This document shows positions 2,928 through 23,592 of a DNA stretch of 23,865 nt, piece by piece; the first letter of the stretch is position 1, and every line of letters begins with the position of its first letter. The stretch covers positions 1-23,865 of the IMG/VR virus record IMGVR_UViG_3300024520_000495; one strand, given 5' to 3'. The DNA is from a virus. The notes below the pieces were generated by a model. That model had not been told where the DNA came from. It did no database searches and saw only the letters and a program-made list of their open reading frames with translations. Position numbers and translations under genes: made by a program.

Positions 2928-3083
2928 AATTTCACACCACATACAAGAGCGCGGCGGAAGTGCAAGTTCCCCGCGTTGTGGCGTTGCTGCATTCCGCCTT
3001 CCCTGATTGGACTATCCCGGCCAATGGAAATCGTTAACCTGATCGGTTCACAACCTTTTCTGTAGTCGCACAGTGCGGAACAG

Positions 3084-9297: not shown

Positions 9298-9557
9298 TGA
9301 GCGACCGCGAACGGGCACAGCTTTCCAAGATGCTTGATCCTATCTGCAACGCCGTTGCGGAATCCTACCGCCAAGCGATAATCATGCGATGTGAAGTAAC
9401 GCAATTCCTCGCTGTGTACAACGGCGCGGAGGGTGAGGATTTAGGACCTTTGATTGCTACTACTATCGAAACCTCTCAGCCGTTGACGCAACGCTGGCTG
9501 GACGAGATTGGAATGATTACACGGGCACGAAAAATTGAGAAAGGAGAGTACGAATGA
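9294..9557 (+). CDS. hypothetical helical protein, 87 aa
   Basis: Unrecognised, probably all helical (RERAQLSKMLDPICNAVAES, QPLTQRWLDEIG). Tandem ATGs at 9294 and 9297 are both usable; AAAGGAG ends 6 nt before the first. The stop overlaps the ERF gene start (ATGA), and its last codons carry the AAAGGAG that serves ERF. The fixed coupling suggests it may be an accessory to the annealing protein, which is inference from position. Confidence 0.65.
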   Translation: MMSDRERAQLSKMLDPICNAVAESYRQAIIMRCEVTQFLAVYNGAEGEDLGPLIATTIETSQPLTQRWLDEIGMITRARKIEKGEYE

Positions 9558-10357
9558 CAGGCGACAAAAAAGAAAAGGCATTTATGGCTGATGCAGTACC
9601 AGCCGAAAACAGGCTGGACGAAAACGACGACGTAGATGATCGTCCAGAATCCAATCAGACTGAACCAGTGGACGGGCCACCAGCAAAAGAGGCCACGCTA
9701 TATGAACGCATACTGTGGGTTCGTGATCGCGTGACACGCCTCGGTAAAGACTCGACCGTATCCACAGGCGGCAGCGGATCGTACAACGCAATCAGCCATG
9801 ACAAGGTGACTGCATTCATTCGCCCGAAGATGGTTCAGGCAGGGATCATGTCGTATCTGGACTGCATCGAGGCAACGGACGCAGATACGGGCGCGGTCAC
9901 CGGGAAGGGTCGAAAGATCGTTCAGCACCGAGCCAAGTTCAACGTCATTTTCGCGAACTGCCACGACAAAGAGGATGCGATTGCGATTCAGCTATACGCT
10001 TATGCGGACGACTTCGGAGACAAAGCCCCCGGCAAAGCGGCCAGCTACGCAATGAAATACGCGCTGCTGAAAATGTTTATGATCGAAACAGGCGAAGAGG
10101 ATGAGGAACGCGTCGAACCAGATGGAGGTCAAGCGGCGCTATTAGTCGATAACGAAACGATGCTCACCGACCTGTACGCCGTTGCCGAAGAATGTTTTGG
10201 AGACGATGCGCCGAAGATGCTACTGGCAATGGCGAACCGTCGCTTCAACGTCGACAACTACGGCAAGATTCCACAGGACCGATTCAACGATGCAGTCCGA
10301 TCGCTCCGGGTCAAGGCCGCTTCACTCGCGCCGAAGGAGAGTGCCGATGAATCGTGA
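9554..10357 (+). CDS. erf: ERF family single-strand annealing protein
   Basis: 267 aa. ERF proteins bind single-stranded DNA and promote annealing in phage recombination. The family core runs from about residue 77 to 186: Y-N-A-I-S-H-D-K-V with I-R-P and Q-A-G-I, then G-D-K-A-P-G-K-A-x-S-Y-A-x-K-Y-A-L-L-K-M-F, ending IETGEEDEE. The first 45 residues are acidic and disordered-looking, and the C-terminal 80 residues are less conserved, possibly a protein-interaction tail. AAAGGAG precedes ATG 9554. Four genes downstream lies a YqaJ-type exonuclease, its expected partner. Confidence 0.9.
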   Translation: MTGDKKEKAFMADAVPAENRLDENDDVDDRPESNQTEPVDGPPAKEATLYERILWVRDRVTRLGKDSTVSTGGSGSYNAISHDKVTAFIRPKMVQAGIMSYLDCIEATDADTGAVTGKGRKIVQHRAKFNVIFANCHDKEDAIAIQLYAYADDFGDKAPGKAASYAMKYALLKMFMIETGEEDEERVEPDGGQAALLVDNETMLTDLYAVAEECFGDDAPKMLLAMANRRFNVDNYGKIPQDRFNDAVRSLRVKAASLAPKESADES

Positions 10358-10740: not shown

Positions 10741-11057
10741 CTGTTCATTACCCCGCAGGATTTTGGCAATGGTACCGAAGCGCGGACGGTCAGCGAGTCT
10801 GGAAAGACTTTGAACGCCGCGCTTTGGAAATGGCAACGGTTCGGAAACACTACGGAGCGAAGGCGATCATCGAAGTGATTCGGTGGGACACTGCGTTGCG
10901 TGGTGGAACCGACTTCAAGATGAATAACAACTGGGCACCCGGCTTGGCACGACGCTGGCTATCGAAACATGGCCGACAGCATCCGGGATTTTTTAGACTG
11001 CGCGACGCTTTCGGTAATGACGAAGTGATCGTTCACGGACAGAAGGTACCGTTCTGA
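10737..11057 (+). CDS. conserved phage protein, 106 aa
   Basis: The segment A-K-A-I-I-E-x-I-R-W (residues about 41-50), then F-K-M-N-N-N-W-A-P-x-x-A-R-R-W, then G-F-F-R-x-R is a recognisable conserved pattern in proteobacterial phages, often next to recombination genes; its function is unknown. A very strong SD (AAAGGAGG) lies 7 nt before ATG 10737, and the stop overlaps the exonuclease start by one base (TGATG). Co-translation with the nuclease suggests a shared pathway. Confidence 0.75.
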   Translation: MTVHYPAGFWQWYRSADGQRVWKDFERRALEMATVRKHYGAKAIIEVIRWDTALRGGTDFKMNNNWAPGLARRWLSKHGRQHPGFFRLRDAFGNDEVIVHGQKVPF

Positions 11058-11743
11058 TGAGAGTTCTGACAGAGAAACAAGGTGATGATCTTTGGGACAT
11101 TGCTCGCAAGGGTCGCATCACCGCATCGAGTATCGGGAAAGTGTTAGCGGGCAAGGGCACGAAAGGCCGATACGAATATATGTTGCAACTAGTAATGGAC
11201 TTGGAAGGGATCGAGGATTTCCAAGACTCGGCAAGCTGGTTCGAAGATGGGCGCCGCTACGAAGGTCATGCGCGAGGCTGGTATGACTGGAACGTGAAGG
11301 AGGTAAAAGAAACCGGGTTCGTATTGCACGACGAATACAACTGGCTCGGCGCGTCACCGGATGGACTGGTCGGCGATGATGGAATGATCGAGATTAAGTT
11401 CCGCAAAACGCTCAAGACGTATCACGATTCGAACATCAAGGACCCACCACGCAGTTATTTATCGCAGATGCAAACGGGCATGTGGGTATGCAATCGCGAG
11501 TGGTGCGATTACGTTAACTATTGGCGGTCCGATGAACACGGAAAGGAGCAAGCACACGTTCGCAGAATCTACCGCGACGAAGGACGCATCCGAGAATTGG
11601 AGGACGCTGCATTGGTTTTCTGGTCCGAGGCTTTAACGCTATTCAGGAAACGAACAGGTAAGGATCAATTCCTGTTTCCGTTCGATGATCCCGAAGCACA
11701 CAAAAAACGCACCAAGAAAAGAGAGGTACAAAATGAAACGTAA
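11057..11743 (+). CDS. YqaJ-type viral recombinase / lambda exonuclease family nuclease
   Basis: 228 aa. The family degrades one strand of linear duplex DNA from 5' ends to give 3' tails for an annealing protein. The PD-(D/E)xK core is intact: E69 in G-R-R-Y-E, then G-A-S-P-D-G with D102, E112 and K114 (I-E-I-K), and Q137 in the L-S-Q-M-Q motif. The D-x9-E-x-K spacing equals that of lambda Exo (D119, E129, K131). The start shares a base with the upstream stop. It pairs functionally with the ERF protein at 9554. The C-terminus is strongly basic. Confidence 0.9.
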   Translation: MRVLTEKQGDDLWDIARKGRITASSIGKVLAGKGTKGRYEYMLQLVMDLEGIEDFQDSASWFEDGRRYEGHARGWYDWNVKEVKETGFVLHDEYNWLGASPDGLVGDDGMIEIKFRKTLKTYHDSNIKDPPRSYLSQMQTGMWVCNREWCDYVNYWRSDEHGKEQAHVRRIYRDEGRIRELEDAALVFWSEALTLFRKRTGKDQFLFPFDDPEAHKKRTKKREVQNET

Positions 11744-15532: not shown

Positions 15533-18500
15533 TCAGCCTTGCGTTCCGGTAATGGTTCCGTTGTTTGTGACGGTTGCCGAGTGGCCGTTTTTGCGAACAG
15601 CGTATCCGCGTGCACCGCCAGTTCCGCCAGTTCCGTTGTTGAGCGAGCCGGTGCCGTTCGCACCAGACGCGCCGACTGTGTTGACGTTGCCGCCTGCGCC
15701 GCCGTCGCCTGCATTACCCGATCCATTACCTTTCGCACCGCCGCCGCTACCTGTGCCCGCTGCGCCGTTTGTTGCACCAACGCCGCCCGATCCTTTCGTG
15801 CCGCCTGCACCATTCGGGAAACCGCCGCCACCGCCGCCACCACCGTGTGGCAGAGGTTCGCTTGCTGGATACTCTGCACCGCCGCCGCCGCCAGCACCGC
15901 CGCCCGACGCTTGAACTACGCCGCCGCTATTGACAAGGATTCCACTTACCATCGGCTCTTGTAAATAAATCGCGTCGCCACCGTCGCCGCCGCCTGCGCC
16001 ATTTCCTGCCGTAGCACCGATACCGCCGTTGCCACCTGAGCCGCCGCCGCCGCGAACTGTTCCCGTCACTTCAAGTTTCAAATCAATCGTTGGTGATGCA
16101 GGCCACGAACCCGTATCGATGCCGTGACCGCCGCCTGCGTTGCCGGTAATTGTTACGCCGGCACCGAGTTGGAAAATGATCGTTGCATTAGCAATACCAT
16201 CGTATGCGGGTGAGTGAGCATTCGCCAGTGATCGCAAGTTCACCGGACCAGAACCAGTGATCGCAATCGTTTCATTGAACGTTGTTGGCGGATCGCCGGT
16301 GTCACCTTTGCCTGCCAGCAAGTCCCATTGTGTATTTCCGGCATTCGTTCCCGATGGGGCGTTGCCGGTTGTTGGTAGAACGCAAATATATGATCGCTCT
16401 TGATACGTCACAACATCGTGCAAAATGTACGCCGTTCCAGCAGCGTATGCGTTCCGATAAACCAACCCGGAAACGATACCCGGAGTTGACCAAACGCCAA
16501 CCAAAACACCAGCGGCCGTTTTCGTTCCTGTGACGCTCCACAGCGTATCGGTACCCGCAGGAACATCATCGGTCCACCCCGCAGGATTATCACCCGTAGG
16601 CGTTGCTGGCGCCGTAGTTGAACGCTTGAATTTTATATCCCGATATTCCCCATCGGCCCCTTGATTACCCGGTGATAGCGTAACGTCAAGAGCAAAAAGT
16701 CCCGTGAGGTTGAGCGTACTTCGCATGTAATAATTGATTCGATAAACCGTAACCTGAGTTAAGTTTCCCGCCCAATCAGCGATGTTTGCCTGAGCGGTTC
16801 CCGCACCTGTTATCGCGGGCTCAGTCAATGTGTCGCCGGATACCTTCGTAATGTTGATATTGAACTTACCAACGCCCGCAGGGAAAGCGGCGGTTTGCGT
16901 GTTGGTATTGAGCTCCAAAAGGTCGGCACCCTCATACGCATGCGCCGCGCCGCCACTGCCCGTCCAATCTTCGACACCGGCATTTGTGACCGGCACCGAA
17001 TGACTTTGATTTGTAGCGTTTGCGGTCAGTGATAAATCACCGTCCGCACCATCGGCGGGTGCCGAAGTATTGTTGCCCGTAAGTGTAGTGGTGGTCAGAT
17101 TAGGTTCCCAAGTTGAACGAACGCCAATTCCACTTACAGATCGGAGCCAGTAATAACGGGTTCGTCCGTCACCGACCTGATCTAAATACGATGCGCCTTT
17201 TACCGTAGCAACCAGTACCGCATTGCCTCGAACATTATCATCGGACCCCCACACTTCAACATCGGAAACTACCGCAAGCGGCGGGCTAGTCCAAGCCAGT
17301 TGCACACCACCAGTTGCAGAGTCCGCAGTGACAGACGTAGGCGGCGGAACTGCTAAATCGCCATACGCAATCACCCCGGTTGCGGATCGCGTAACGTACT
17401 CACCGACGAGCGGATCATCCCAAGCCGAATCGACTTCCTCCACCAGCGTAAGCTCGACACCTTTCTCGCTCATTGCCCATTCAGAGACAAAGAATTTCTC
17501 GCCGCTGAATCCGTACTCGGCCATATCAAGCAGAACAGTTGATCCGGGTTGAATGCGGAAGCACGACATATTTCCTGAGTAGTGAACGATGCGTTGCTGC
17601 CGCGATTGTTTGAGAGTCGCAATTCCTTTTCGCTGAGCTTCGAAATTATTATTCGTAGCGAGAAAATCCGCCACCAGCGGTCGCACTTCATCCCCGTCTT
17701 CGGTTTCATAGGTGGACGAGCGTAATTCTGGATACGTGCTTGCGGTGTAGTTGCGAGAGGGGTCGATGAACTTTCCGCGCACACGGTTATAGCGTTCCTT
17801 TGCCCCTGCACTGGCCTGAACGGTGACGCCGCCACTTAAATTCGATTCGGTTAGCGTCACATCGGGAGTGATTGCCGCGCCTGCCCACATACACCACACG
17901 CCCTGAGTGAAAACCATTCGACCGAGCATGGCATTCAACAATGCGTCGCGAACTTCACCGCGCTTTTCGGTTGATTGGAATGTGGCGTTGCAGGTATATC
18001 GGTCCTGAGTTGACGATGGAATCGTAACTGTCTGCTCGCAAATATCTGCCGCATCAATAACCAGCGGCCAATTCACCCGCGCATCGTCTTCCTTCATGCC
18101 GAACTTTTCATCGCGAATAAAGTCTGCGAGACACAGCGCCGGGTTTGCGGACCACTCCCATGTGGACGGTGTTGCTAACCGATGCGCGCCCGTTCCGCCG
18201 TTCGTATCATCCAGTCGCGGGTCGTAGACTTTTTTGCCCTTGATGATCGCGCGTAGATTCTGTGGCGCGCCAGCTTCGAATGCGTTGTTATCGTCCTCCA
18301 GCGTGAACTTCCACACCATATAGGTATGACCAAGACCGCGATGCGTACTCGCGCCGAACAGCGCCGGGAAATCGGTCGACAGCATGGCCGCACAGTTTTG
18401 TGTTTGCGTTCCAAGCAGCATGTTCACCGAAGCAACGCCGGAAAGTCGGCCGCCCGTTACGTCGCTACCAGTAATATCGGTCAGCGGAATATCCACATCA

Positions 18501-18847
18501 TCCAAACGGTAAGCGACCACTGAATCAACTTCATGGCCCACCAGTTCGACCGCCAGTGTCATGTGTTCGTTTTTGGTTCCGCTTACCTGACCATAGATAA
18601 TCGGACCCGATAACATATCTTCACCGTAGACGAATCGTTGCGGGTGAATCGAATCTTTGACCGTGTGTAATTTCTCATGCGCCGCTTGGCTTAGGTCCGC
18701 TTTCGGTGAAAGGTGTTTTGCTGCAATCGCCAGCGTCGCAATCCGGGCGACAGTTACCGCAAAATAATACCAGCCCGTTCCTGCCGAACCGTATCCGAAG
18801 ATCGCGCCGACAAACTTACCAATTGCGATCCATGTTTCAACGCCCAT
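15533..18847 (-). CDS. tail tip / receptor-binding protein (lambda J-like) with glycine-rich C-terminus
   Basis: 1104 aa. The hydrophobic N-terminus (residues 1-45) and the region to about 490 resemble tail-tip proteins of the J/TipJ type (GPIIYGQVSGTKNEHM, LADFIRDEKFG, ERYNRVRGKFIDPSRNY). A fibronectin III domain follows at about 499-582 (PPPTSVTADSATGGVQLAW). Near 792-850 there is a carbohydrate-binding-like repeat (AYAAGTAYILHDVVTY...W) and a collagen-like GKGDTGD. Residues about 929-1085 are glycine-rich with runs up to eight G, then a GYAVRKNG...NNGTITG end. It probably recognises the receptor at the tail tip. The ATG is 18847 with GGA 6 nt upstream, overlapping the previous gene by 11 nt. 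Confidence 0.85.
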   Translation of the reverse strand: MGVETWIAIGKFVGAIFGYGSAGTGWYYFAVTVARIATLAIAAKHLSPKADLSQAAHEKLHTVKDSIHPQRFVYGEDMLSGPIIYGQVSGTKNEHMTLAVELVGHEVDSVVAYRLDDVDIPLTDITGSDVTGGRLSGVASVNMLLGTQTQNCAAMLSTDFPALFGASTHRGLGHTYMVWKFTLEDDNNAFEAGAPQNLRAIIKGKKVYDPRLDDTNGGTGAHRLATPSTWEWSANPALCLADFIRDEKFGMKEDDARVNWPLVIDAADICEQTVTIPSSTQDRYTCNATFQSTEKRGEVRDALLNAMLGRMVFTQGVWCMWAGAAITPDVTLTESNLSGGVTVQASAGAKERYNRVRGKFIDPSRNYTASTYPELRSSTYETEDGDEVRPLVADFLATNNNFEAQRKGIATLKQSRQQRIVHYSGNMSCFRIQPGSTVLLDMAEYGFSGEKFFVSEWAMSEKGVELTLVEEVDSAWDDPLVGEYVTRSATGVIAYGDLAVPPPTSVTADSATGGVQLAWTSPPLAVVSDVEVWGSDDNVRGNAVLVATVKGASYLDQVGDGRTRYYWLRSVSGIGVRSTWEPNLTTTTLTGNNTSAPADGADGDLSLTANATNQSHSVPVTNAGVEDWTGSGGAAHAYEGADLLELNTNTQTAAFPAGVGKFNINITKVSGDTLTEPAITGAGTAQANIADWAGNLTQVTVYRINYYMRSTLNLTGLFALDVTLSPGNQGADGEYRDIKFKRSTTAPATPTGDNPAGWTDDVPAGTDTLWSVTGTKTAAGVLVGVWSTPGIVSGLVYRNAYAAGTAYILHDVVTYQERSYICVLPTTGNAPSGTNAGNTQWDLLAGKGDTGDPPTTFNETIAITGSGPVNLRSLANAHSPAYDGIANATIIFQLGAGVTITGNAGGGHGIDTGSWPASPTIDLKLEVTGTVRGGGGSGGNGGIGATAGNGAGGGDGGDAIYLQEPMVSGILVNSGGVVQASGGGAGGGGGAEYPASEPLPHGGGGGGGGFPNGAGGTKGSGGVGATNGAAGTGSGGGAKGNGSGNAGDGGAGGNVNTVGASGANGTGSLNNGTGGTGGARGYAVRKNGHSATVTNNGTITGTQG

Positions 18848-19864: not shown

Positions 19865-20499
19865 GGTGCGGTCGCGAAAACATCCTCAAGTAGTTCCAGA
19901 CTCACGACTGAGCGTTTGTTCACGCCGGGCCGCGAACTCCAATTCTGTTCACCGTTCGCGAGCAAGAATACGCCCTGCGGTTTGGATAGAACACCGTCTT
20001 CGACAAATACCACGGCACTGTTTGCTGGCGAGAAACGCAAGCGTGGTTCGAACGACACGGTTATCAAACCCGTTCCATTCGAGCTTGCGTCTGCTGTGCA
20101 CATTTTCAATTCATGCTCGCCGTTGATCGCAACGCTGAAATAATCACCGCGACGGATCCAGTTCGAAATGTTGTTGCTGCATCCTTTCAGATCAATGCTC
20201 GATCCGGTTTGCGATGCACCATCCACCAGTGGCGTACCACCGTACGCGCCGCGTTTCTCGTTGTCGTAAACCGATACCCGCATGCGGTTCGCTCGCCCTC
20301 GCATTGCCGCTATCGTGCCGAGCATTTCACCGCGATCATCGTTCCGCAATTCGGTGTACGTATATGTTGCAATCCAATGCAGTCCGCCGCGATCGATCGT
20401 TTGCTGTGATGCAATCATCGGTGAGTCGAACACCCCGGAGTTGTCGCGCAATTTCATCGCAACGATATTCGGTACGGGCGTCAGGTCGAAGTTACTCAT
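19861..20499 (-). CDS. distal tail-like minor tail protein
   Basis: 212 aa. A beta-rich protein immediately after the tape measure gene, the slot taken by distal tail or lambda gpM/L-type proteins. Recognisable signs are an N-terminal F-D-S-P-M-I-A-S-Q-Q-T followed by G-L-H-W-I-A-T-Y-T-Y, A-A-M-R-G-R-A-N-R-M-R-V, and a C-terminal ligand-like W-S-S-R-P-G segment then V-S-L-E-L-L-E. The match is to a family of about 200-aa siphophage tail proteins. It overlaps the tape measure stop and the hub start (ATGA at both ends). Confidence 0.7.
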   Translation of the reverse strand: MSNFDLTPVPNIVAMKLRDNSGVFDSPMIASQQTIDRGGLHWIATYTYTELRNDDRGEMLGTIAAMRGRANRMRVSVYDNEKRGAYGGTPLVDGASQTGSSIDLKGCSNNISNWIRRGDYFSVAINGEHELKMCTADASSNGTGLITVSFEPRLRFSPANSAVVFVEDGVLSKPQGVFLLANGEQNWSSRPGVNKRSVVSLELLEDVFATAP

Positions 20500-22505
20500 G
20501 CGTAAGACCCTCGATCAAATGCGTCCAGCATTTCGCCTTTCACTTTGCGGTTATTTTCCTCAAGAATCGGAATCAGCGTGGCAATGTCCAGAGCGTTGCC
20601 GCCTTGAATCGTGGTGTTCGATTCGAAACTCATTGCACCGAGCGGACGTATTGCACCCGTCGCGCCGGGCGTAAACATTTCCGGGCCGCGTTCACCCACA
20701 AGCAACGGAACACCACCTGCACGATTGCCACCGATAGCGGCAGGCGCACCAGAGGCGACCGCAGCGGGAGTTCCGACAACGGGTATCGTCCCGGAAGCGT
20801 TACCGAGGAATCCAAATAAGTACTCGAGAATTTTGGTGGCGACAATTTGCGCTACCATTTTGCGGAGCATATCCACGAACGATTTGAACATTCCATCCAG
20901 TCCACTTTCCCACGGATCGAAAAGGTACTGGCCGAGAATGTCCTGCATGTTGCTGAACGACCGCTTCTGGAACTCCGTCATATCCTTGAACAGATCGTCG
21001 CTTTCATCTTTGAGGCGTTTCATTTCCTCCAAGTATGCGTCGACCGCGGCACCGGCTTGTCGCCCCGCAATTTCGGGAGTCCAAAACGGATTCGTTTCAA
21101 GGTCCTCGCGAATTTTATTCAATCGTTCCTGTAGTTCCTCGCTCGGTGTTGCGACCGCAGCGGAAGCGGATTCGAAATCGGCCTTCTGTTTGTCCACCAA
21201 TGCGGTACTGGCTTTGTCCACGCGATCCAGTTCCTTAAGGTACGCATCGACCGCTGCACTGGCCTGCCGCCCCGCGAGTTCGGGACTCCATAGCGGGTTC
21301 GTTGTTAGCTGATCCCGGATCGCCGCCAGCTTCAAATGCAACGCTTCCAATGGTTTTGCGGTAGCACGAATCGCAGCATCGAAATCACGCTGGAATTTGA
21401 TCGCATCCATATCGCCCGTCAGGTTATCGTCGCCGCCGAGTCCAACCGAATCAGGCGTCGTTAGCTCGCCTGTCTCCAACAGTTTTGTTTGTGCTTCCTT
21501 TGCCGCAACGTATCGCAACCGCAGTGTTTCGATTTTCTCACTCAGCTTATCGATAACCATCTGCGTACCAGCAGGGGGCTTACGAAACTTGTCAGAAAAT
21601 GCCTGCAACCCAGCGCGTTCATCGACCAGTGCGCCAGTATCCTTTTGAATCTGATTCAGTTCCGCTGCTAAGTCTGCCAGCGTTAGGTTTGTCAGTTCGC
21701 GATTTACGCCGAAGATCGATGCGGCCCATGCAGTCCACTTTGGAATGGCGTCTGTGACACTGCTTGTCAGGCTCTCAATCTTTTCCGCGACGACGATAAT
21801 AGTAGGCGCAACCCGCGCGGCGATCTGATTACCCAGACCAGTGAACGCAGTCTTCATCACCAGAATGGCATCGTTCGCCTCTTCGATGTTTCCCGTCTGC
21901 TTGTCGGTTAGCGCAACGCCGAGTTCATCCACTTTTTTGATGTACTTGTCCAGCCCTTCGGCGCCGAGTTCCAGTACGTTCAGAAGGTCCGCATTTTTCG
22001 CGCCGAAGATATCGGATGCGATGCCGACTTTGAGGGTTTGGTTTTCAACATCGTTCAGCGCAGTAACGATAGATTTGAATTGTTCCTCAACGGGCATACG
22101 GATCAAGTCGGCGGTCGCTAATCCGAGTCGGTCGAATGCCTTTTTCTGAGTCAGCAATCCATCGTTTGCGTCGACCACCGCTTTCAGTTGTTTCTTGAGT
22201 GCCTTTTCAAATGACCCGACTGCAACGCCGCTGATTCCTGCCGCGAGGGACAGGCCAGCGAATACCCGCTGCGTCGTGCCGAGAGTTCGCGCGACTTTGC
22301 GTTGCGAATCAACTGTTGCGAGTGATTGTTTGGTCAGTGCGGTTAACGCAATACCCAATCCGGCAGTAGCAGCGGCAGCGACTTTGAAACTCTTAGCGAG
22401 TGCGTCCGAAAATCCTTTGCCTGTTTTCTTGGCCTTTTTAAGACCGTTTTCGAACTTGGCCGTTTCCGCTGTGATGTTTACCGTTACTGTCGATGCGACT
22501 GCCAT
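20496..22505 (-). CDS. tail length tape measure protein
   Basis: 669 aa and largely helical. An N-terminal coiled coil (AETAKFENGLKKAKKTGKGF) leads into hydrophobic AAAATAGLGIALTAL, then TMP-like sequence, and the C-terminus carries G-G-V-P-L-L-V-G-E-R-G-P-E-M-F-T-P-G-A-T-G-A, a hallmark of tape measures. At roughly 0.15 nm per residue it predicts a tail near 100 nm. Residues about 385-432 and 455-502 are an internal duplication (TNPLWSPELAGRQASAAVDAYL against TNPFWTPEIAGRQAGAAVDAYL, broken here for comparison only). AAAGGA precedes ATG 22505, inside the 3' end of the GT reading frame. Confidence 0.9.
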   Translation of the reverse strand: MAVASTVTVNITAETAKFENGLKKAKKTGKGFSDALAKSFKVAAAATAGLGIALTALTKQSLATVDSQRKVARTLGTTQRVFAGLSLAAGISGVAVGSFEKALKKQLKAVVDANDGLLTQKKAFDRLGLATADLIRMPVEEQFKSIVTALNDVENQTLKVGIASDIFGAKNADLLNVLELGAEGLDKYIKKVDELGVALTDKQTGNIEEANDAILVMKTAFTGLGNQIAARVAPTIIVVAEKIESLTSSVTDAIPKWTAWAASIFGVNRELTNLTLADLAAELNQIQKDTGALVDERAGLQAFSDKFRKPPAGTQMVIDKLSEKIETLRLRYVAAKEAQTKLLETGELTTPDSVGLGGDDNLTGDMDAIKFQRDFDAAIRATAKPLEALHLKLAAIRDQLTTNPLWSPELAGRQASAAVDAYLKELDRVDKASTALVDKQKADFESASAAVATPSEELQERLNKIREDLETNPFWTPEIAGRQAGAAVDAYLEEMKRLKDESDDLFKDMTEFQKRSFSNMQDILGQYLFDPWESGLDGMFKSFVDMLRKMVAQIVATKILEYLFGFLGNASGTIPVVGTPAAVASGAPAAIGGNRAGGVPLLVGERGPEMFTPGATGAIRPLGAMSFESNTTIQGGNALDIATLIPILEENNRKVKGEMLDAFDRGSYA
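21005..21345 (-). repeat. internal duplication in the tape measure gene, about 210-nt period
   Basis: Two related stretches, roughly 21215-21345 and 21005-21135, encode the same 45-residue pattern (N-P-L/F-W-S/T-P-E-L/I-A-G-R-Q-A-S/G-A-A-V-D-A-Y-L). The copies lie 70 codons apart and are diverged at DNA level but conserved at protein level, so the duplication is old and under selection. Such units let tail length change in steps. Confidence 0.6.
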
Positions 22506-23141
22506 AGCGTTTGTCCTTTGCCAACTGGCGGAAAGTGTCCCACGTTTTGGCGAGCGGGTCGAACTCTGGATCGACTTCTGGCTGATCGGCGGGCATGAAA
22601 TCGCCGACCGTGTACGGCTTCGTTTTCTTGTCCCGCATCAAGTTCGAAATCAGGCAAGCGAGAAACGCTGTGTCGTATGACCACGGAAACAGTCGATAGT
22701 ACGCAACGTAGTCGGTGTACTCCCGGCTTGTGACTACTCGCTCTTTGGCTTCGCGAACGGTGCAATGGAGGTCACGCGCTATGAACCACCAATATCGATC
22801 TCGTCCGCTGATTCGTTTCCCGCTTCGGCTTCATCGTCTGTATCCATGCCGCTCAATGCGAGAATCGCGTTCGCAATCTTGACTACCCACTCCGTTCGAA
22901 TCTGGTCCAAATCTTCTGGCTGTTCTATCGCAGGTTCGACCAGACCGATTGACGAAACGAATAACATTGTTTCCCAGCGATCCGCCTCAGCACGTTCGCT
23001 TAGTGAAAAGCGTTCCCGTCCTGTGAGTTCCCGAATAGTGACCGAATGATCGCCGACCTGAATTACCTCTTGTTTGAGTTCAGAGTCGGCGACCAGATCG
23101 GCAAACGATGTGCTTTGTTTGTTTTTTGCTGCCGCTTTCAT
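22438..23141 (-). CDS. tail assembly chaperone GT fusion by -1 frameshift
   Basis: The G frame runs to codon 109 and slips back one base at G_GGA_AAC (22821-22815). The new frame is then open for 125 codons to the stop at 22438, giving about 234 aa. The extension is protein-like and characteristic of gpT: Y-W-W-F-I-A-R-D (soon after the shift), then R-E-Y-T-D-Y-V-A-Y-Y-R-L-F-P-W, L-I-S-N-L-M-R-D-K-K-T-K-P-Y and D-F-M-P. It has no convincing start of its own. It overlaps the tape measure start by 68 nt. In lambda, GT binds the tape measure and recruits tube subunits; the same role is expected here. Confidence 0.8.
22779..23141 (-). CDS. tail assembly chaperone G
   Basis: 120 aa. The unshifted product of the G/GT pair. 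Features are a basic N-terminus (MKAAAKNKQ), a beta segment EVIQVGDHSVTIRELTGRER like other chaperones of this slot, and a helical acidic C-terminus ending SADEIDIGGS. It lies between the tube and tape measure genes, as lambda gpG does. AAGGA precedes ATG 23141 at 7 nt. Most ribosomes should terminate at the TAG 22779-22781, and a fraction shift at codons 108-109 to make GT. Confidence 0.85.
   Translation of the reverse strand: MKAAAKNKQSTSFADLVADSELKQEVIQVGDHSVTIRELTGRERFSLSERAEADRWETMLFVSSIGLVEPAIEQPEDLDQIRTEWVVKIANAILALSGMDTDDEAEAGNESADEIDIGGS
22815..22821 (-). promoter_or_regulatory. -1 ribosomal frameshift slippery heptamer GGGAAAC
   Basis: Read on the minus strand, the codons are GCG GGA AAC in the G frame, so the heptamer is in the canonical X XXY YYZ phase (G GGA AAC). 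A -1 slip re-pairs as GGG AAA and enters the open GT frame. It sits within the overlap between the upstream stop in the -1 frame and the G stop at 22779. No obvious strong downstream stem is visible by eye. Confidence 0.75.
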
Positions 23142-23151
23142 GGTCTGTTCC

Positions 23152-23592
23152 TTAAACGATTGTGACGCTGCCAGTGATCTTGATGCGACCCGTTACGGTG
23201 AACACCGATGCCTGTGCCGCATCTTCGGTCCACTCCATAACTTCACCGACGAAATCGACTGTTTCCAGAACAGAATCATCGGCAGGGTCAAGACGCTGAA
23301 CGCGAACGTTGCGCTGAACTTGCGCCAGAACATCATCACGGATTGCCTCTTGACCTGCGTTGCCGATATTGCGGTTGCAGGTAAAATTGACTGAGCCGGG
23401 ATTCGGCAGGTCGCCAAAAAACTCTTTGGCAGTCGAATCCATATCCGTGTGTTCGATTTCGTCCTTGCTGAACTCAGGACCGGACAGTGCGGTTAAATTA
23501 CCGATAATGTCGAAAGTATCCACGGCCGGCAGCGTAGCCGGTGCGACACCTTGACCCAAAGATAGTACCGACTTCGAAAGTACCTTCGCCAT
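23152..23592 (-). CDS. major tail tube protein
   Basis: 146 aa, beta-rich (LETVDFVGEVMEWTEDAAQASVFTVTGRIKITGSVTIV at the end, shown in context only). In place and character it matches lambda gpV/HK97-type tube proteins: an N-terminal arm (VLSLGQGVAPATLPAVD), a long flexible loop with H-T-D-M-D-S-T, L-P-N-P-G-S-V-N-F and a C-terminal strand pair. It stacks as rings around the tape measure. The gene lies 10 nt upstream of G. ATG 23592 has AACGGAG, about 8 nt before it. It is probably among the most abundant products of this strand. Confidence 0.8.
   Translation of the reverse strand: MAKVLSKSVLSLGQGVAPATLPAVDTFDIIGNLTALSGPEFSKDEIEHTDMDSTAKEFFGDLPNPGSVNFTCNRNIGNAGQEAIRDDVLAQVQRNVRVQRLDPADDSVLETVDFVGEVMEWTEDAAQASVFTVTGRIKITGSVTIV

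Follow-up and report, generated by a model that had tools for sequence, protein, structure and literature searches.

In the 23,865-nucleotide stretch of viral DNA analysed here (IMG/VR record IMGVR_UViG_3300024520_000495, taken as a whole and called the window below), two overlapping frames, the second at -1 relative to the first, lie between the genes for the major tail protein and the tape measure protein. This arrangement raises the question of how the second frame is translated. The initial annotation had proposed a programmed -1 frameshift at a GGGAAAC heptamer, by which the two frames, G and T, would be joined into a fusion, GT.

The G and T frames and their putative junction

All genes and signals of this cassette are located on the minus strand. 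Gene G (22779..23141) runs from an ATG at 23141 to a TAG at 22781..22779 and encodes 120 aa, with an AAGGAA sequence resembling a ribosome-binding site at 23153..23148, six bases 5' to the ATG. Directly 5' to G is the gene for the major tail (tube) protein (23152..23592, 146 aa; phrog_158, E 6.6e-14). The tape measure gene (20496..22505, 669 aa; phrog_9483, E 1.3e-36) begins inside the end of T, so that 68 nt (22438-22505), T stop included, belong to both reading frames. In three related contigs (L002, L003, and L005), the T end likewise contains the tape measure start.

PHROG 344 (phrog_344), annotated as 'tail assembly chaperone', was matched by each of the seven proteins aligned for G (A3). 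Against the Pfam family of lambda gpG (PF06894, Phage_TAC_2), G of the window scored 16.4 bits, below the gathering score of 27, and it was therefore filed as a tail assembly chaperone and not as a member of PF06894. The top PDB match of the predicted G model in Foldseek was the HK97 tail assembly chaperone, 2OB9 (E 0.02, probability 1.00; TM 0.49-0.54, with the G model itself of moderate confidence, pLDDT 71). PDB sequence searches with the G and T profiles gave no match.

In the -1 frame, no stop interrupts reading between 22830 and 22440..22438, where the frame ends. Counted from the slip, the T part of GT (22438..22815) consists of 125 codons, as the initial annotation had it, plus the stop, and is entered at CGA (22815..22813). 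The nearest -1-frame stop 5' to the slip is a TGA at 22831..22833, which sets the limit of the crossover, since any shift must occur downstream of it. The T frame matched Pfam PF06223 (Phage_tail_T) above the cut-off (E 1.5e-7, 32.2 bits versus a gathering score of 25.9), and each of the seven sequences aligned for T matched PF06223, which bore out the earlier reading of the frame as a gpT sequence. In the T-only part, difference rates at codon positions 1, 2, and 3 were 0.30, 0.27, and 0.54 among eight sequences. These rates are typical of a translated frame, and by this measure coding constraint acts on the T frame.

It had also been claimed that T has no good start of its own. Indeed, the first ATG, GTG, or TTG of the frame in the window was at codon 58 after the slip (22641), beyond the conserved N-terminal half of gpT, and fusion to G is thus the only evident route to a full gpT. 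The rival explanation is that T is made alone and never fused, either from an internal start or through termination-reinitiation where G ends. The G stop overlaps the T frame, as in coupled gene pairs, and in the window a short ORF of 67 aa with a start codon of its own (22641..22438) does lie in the -1 frame; however, between the upstream stop and codon 58 there was no start to be used, a stretch that extends past the conserved DRYWWFIAR block. Four of the seven relatives (L002, L003, L006, and L033) likewise had their first T-frame start at codon 39 or later, and late starts of this kind would leave out roughly half of the conserved part of T. The remaining relatives had a TTG at codon 15 (L004) or a GTG 25 codons 5' to the slip (L005 and L007). 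Given the lack of starts, independent initiation of T was rejected as very unlikely.

The putative junction, G_GGA_AAC, is located at 22815..22821. Its first base, a G, occupies the third position of codon 107 of gene G, GGA is codon 108, and AAC is codon 109, so the zero-frame phase at codons 108-109 and the coordinates given in the initial annotation were exact; 11 codons separate the heptamer from the G stop. The 7-mer by itself means little against chance. There were 5 copies of GGGAAAC in the window versus 3.6 expected, and a second copy inside G (22975..22969) was out of phase. Strict XXXYYYZ sequences in phase accounted for 0.25-0.5% of codon pairs, and approximately 0.04-0.07 such sites were expected by chance in the crossover stretch of about 14 codon pairs. 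The main and real weight against chance comes from the relatives.

On this evidence the locus is very probably a lambda-type G/GT tail assembly chaperone cassette, in a tailed phage with a siphophage-like tail module, with a predicted -1 frameshift at GGGAAAC. The lambda G/GT design named in the initial annotation was supported by protein family, gene order, frame, phase, the lack of a T start, and the position of the shift in relatives. The majority of ribosomes would read G through to its TAG. In a minority, we infer, tRNA-Gly on GGA in the P site and tRNA-Asn on AAC in the A site would slip back by one base to GGG and AAA, and reading on in the -1 frame would yield a GT fusion with a predicted length of 234 aa (109 + 125; ...EAEAGN-RISGRDRYWW...). 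By analogy with lambda, the role of G would be to coat the tape measure protein, and the rare GT would use its T domain to recruit the tube subunit. Such a fusion would be a hidden gene product of an uncultivated phage group, one likely to be overlooked by ordinary gene callers.

Position and sequence of the slippery site in relatives

Scans of IMG/VR yielded seven contigs with a relative of T (L002-L007 and L033), and in T the first six shared 50-78% identity with the window. Further searches did not enlarge this set: tblastn with T and with G gave no match among 50,697 phage records, no relative was found in bacterial and archaeal genomes scanned twice, and of 25 contigs retrieved with a degenerate DNA pattern of the RYWWF block only five encoded relatives, all five already known.

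Both frames and the same frame relation were kept in all seven relatives. At the codon pair aligned with GGGAAAC of the window, the heptamer was GGGGGAA in L002 and L005, GGAAAAC in L003, and GGAAAAA in L004, L006, and L007, and L033 carried A_AAA_AAG one codon further on. The initial annotation had looked to related phages for a slippery heptamer at this place. Strict GGGAAAC did not hold up, in that XXXYYYZ was found only in the window and L033, with six of the seven relatives lacking a canonical heptamer at the site, whereas the position did: in all eight genomes, both tRNAs could re-pair one base back at codon positions 1 and 2 when G-U pairs were allowed, and this re-pairable site was always within one codon of its position in the window. 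The residues encoded at the codon pair varied (GN, GE, EN, and EK), and protein conservation is therefore not the explanation for the kept site.

Codon pairs that can re-pair under this G-U rule made up 1.8% of the total across long frames at these loci; in G genes the share was 2.5%. When the G tails were codon-shuffled, a site fell within one codon of the position in 4-7% of trials for each genome. A chance origin of the site in all eight genomes thus appears very unlikely, with the reservation that the number of independent lineages is perhaps four or five and a chance multiplied over eight therefore overstates the significance.

The relatives also limit where the shift could occur. L003 has a -1-frame stop one codon before the heptamer and L005 has a zero-frame stop one codon after it, and together these stops leave only a few codons around the heptamer where the shift could take place. 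This bears on the possibility that the -1 shift is real and is brought about by RNA polymerase slippage, or at another codon of the overlap, instead of by tandem slippage of tRNAs at GGGAAAC. Cases of transcriptional slippage are known from other systems (PMC5009743), and runs of A and G are present at the site, reaching seven A in L033, but the runs in the window and L003 are just 3-4 bases, which is short for it. A slip elsewhere in the overlap was rejected on account of the confining stops, and in five of the eight genomes there was no other re-pairable site in the whole permitted stretch. We regard either form of this explanation as highly improbable. Equally rejected was the idea that the frames meet through a sequencing or assembly error or in a decayed gene, with a coincidental heptamer; although short G and A runs are possible places for sequencing errors and a chance in-phase XXXYYYZ site has an expectation of roughly 4-7% in a single genome, its probability is negligible in view of seven other contigs, all of which share the frame relation and have a re-pairable site, and of the coding constraint on T. 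In L005, the TAA after the heptamer (3005-3007) shortens G by about 10 residues compared to the other relatives, and the T frame continues.

It seems reasonably likely, with some room for doubt, that the slippery site in this phage group is held by position and not by sequence, and that its variants interchange yet always stay G-U re-pairable. If this holds, the group would provide evidence from nature that non-canonical heptamers function in vivo and that turnover of slippery sites proceeds by small steps. The natural series of heptamers at one site would be useful for testing which of the non-canonical ones shift.

A candidate stem-loop (22753..22808) was also present 6 nt downstream of the heptamer, its stem made up of 22808..22800 and 22762..22753. 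Consensus folding predicted the stem in the window and six closer relatives, both sides had changed at two of its pairs, and it was the best consensus fold along the region (rank 1 of 541 windows). Compared to column-shuffled alignments the stem was not significant (170-260 of 1000 were as good), and its single-sequence z-scores were weak and likewise not significant. The early strength of the stem was lost against the column shuffles because the region is very highly conserved and part of it is read in two frames. A conserved stimulatory stem or pseudoknot would be expected 5-9 nt past the slippery sequence, and the present stem is offered here as a suggestion.

Comparison with known systems

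The design is a known, textbook type among phages; no new mechanism is involved, and the understanding of tail assembly is left unchanged. The lambda heptamer is G_GGA_AAG, with AAG as the A-site codon where the window has AAC. Like lambda, the window has the order major tail protein, G, T in the -1 frame, and tape measure, with the slip near the end of G, a gpT homologue (PF06223), and a G of chaperone fold. Unlike lambda, the T end overlaps the start of the tape measure gene, by the 68 nt described above, and G is weakly similar to lambda gpG, at a score below the cut-off. In lambda, G and GT arise through a programmed -1 frameshift (Levin et al. 1993; Xu, Hendrix and Duda 2004, as cited in PMC5009743), are found at a ratio of about 30:1, and are both absent from the virion (PMC5009743). 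The A-site codon AAC is of a kind described as mammalian-like and not bacterial (PMC5009743), and the efficiency of the shift in the window phage could be low.

GGGAAAC has already been reported at this kind of site. In Burkholderia phage KL1, a GGGAAAC is predicted to join the tail chaperone frames gp18 and gp19 by a -1 shift (PMC3483164), and the window carries the same heptamer in the same role. The two differ in that the KL1 heptamer is directly before the gp18 stop, whereas 11 codons intervene in the window, and in that KL1 has an extra gene ahead of the tape measure gene. The haloarchaeal virus HCTV-1 has G_GGA_AAC at a G/T-type gene pair, as cited in PMC5009743. It shares with the window both the heptamer and the kind of gene pair; its host is archaeal, and no close sequence relation between HCTV-1 and the window was found.

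The non-canonical heptamers of the relatives have counterparts as well. GGGGGAA, carried by L002 and L005, is a common slippery site of SEA-PHAGES tail assembly chaperones, for which a G-U explanation was proposed (PMC10274946). Judged by class names, GGAAAAC of L003 and GGAAAAA of L004, L006, and L007 fit the PRFect classes twofour and twofive (PMC10274946). The SEA-PHAGES/PRFect set consists of annotated isolates and is biased to high G+C, whereas in the present case different classes substitute for each other in a single gene family.

A related tape measure was found in three annotated phages, Alteromonas PB15, Paracoccus Shpa, and Vibrio K303, where it is preceded by two separate 'hypothetical proteins' (L040 2111-2383, L041 2006-2395, and L042 2115-2390). 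In each case the second 'hypothetical protein' is in the -1 frame and overlaps the first, and in-phase heptamers were present (CCCAAAG in PB15, AAAAAAG in Shpa, and AAAGGAA in K303). The second frame of PB15 matched Pfam Phage_TAC_6. From these arrangements, the three pairs are probable unannotated frameshift fusions.

Elsewhere in the window, positions 15533-18847 encode a J-like central tail fibre of 1104 aa, whose residues 800-830 weakly match CBM_5_12, a carbohydrate-binding module, at a score below the cut-off. On the plus strand, an Erf-like annealing protein and a RecE-like exonuclease (9554-10357 and 11057-11743) make up a phage recombination pair.
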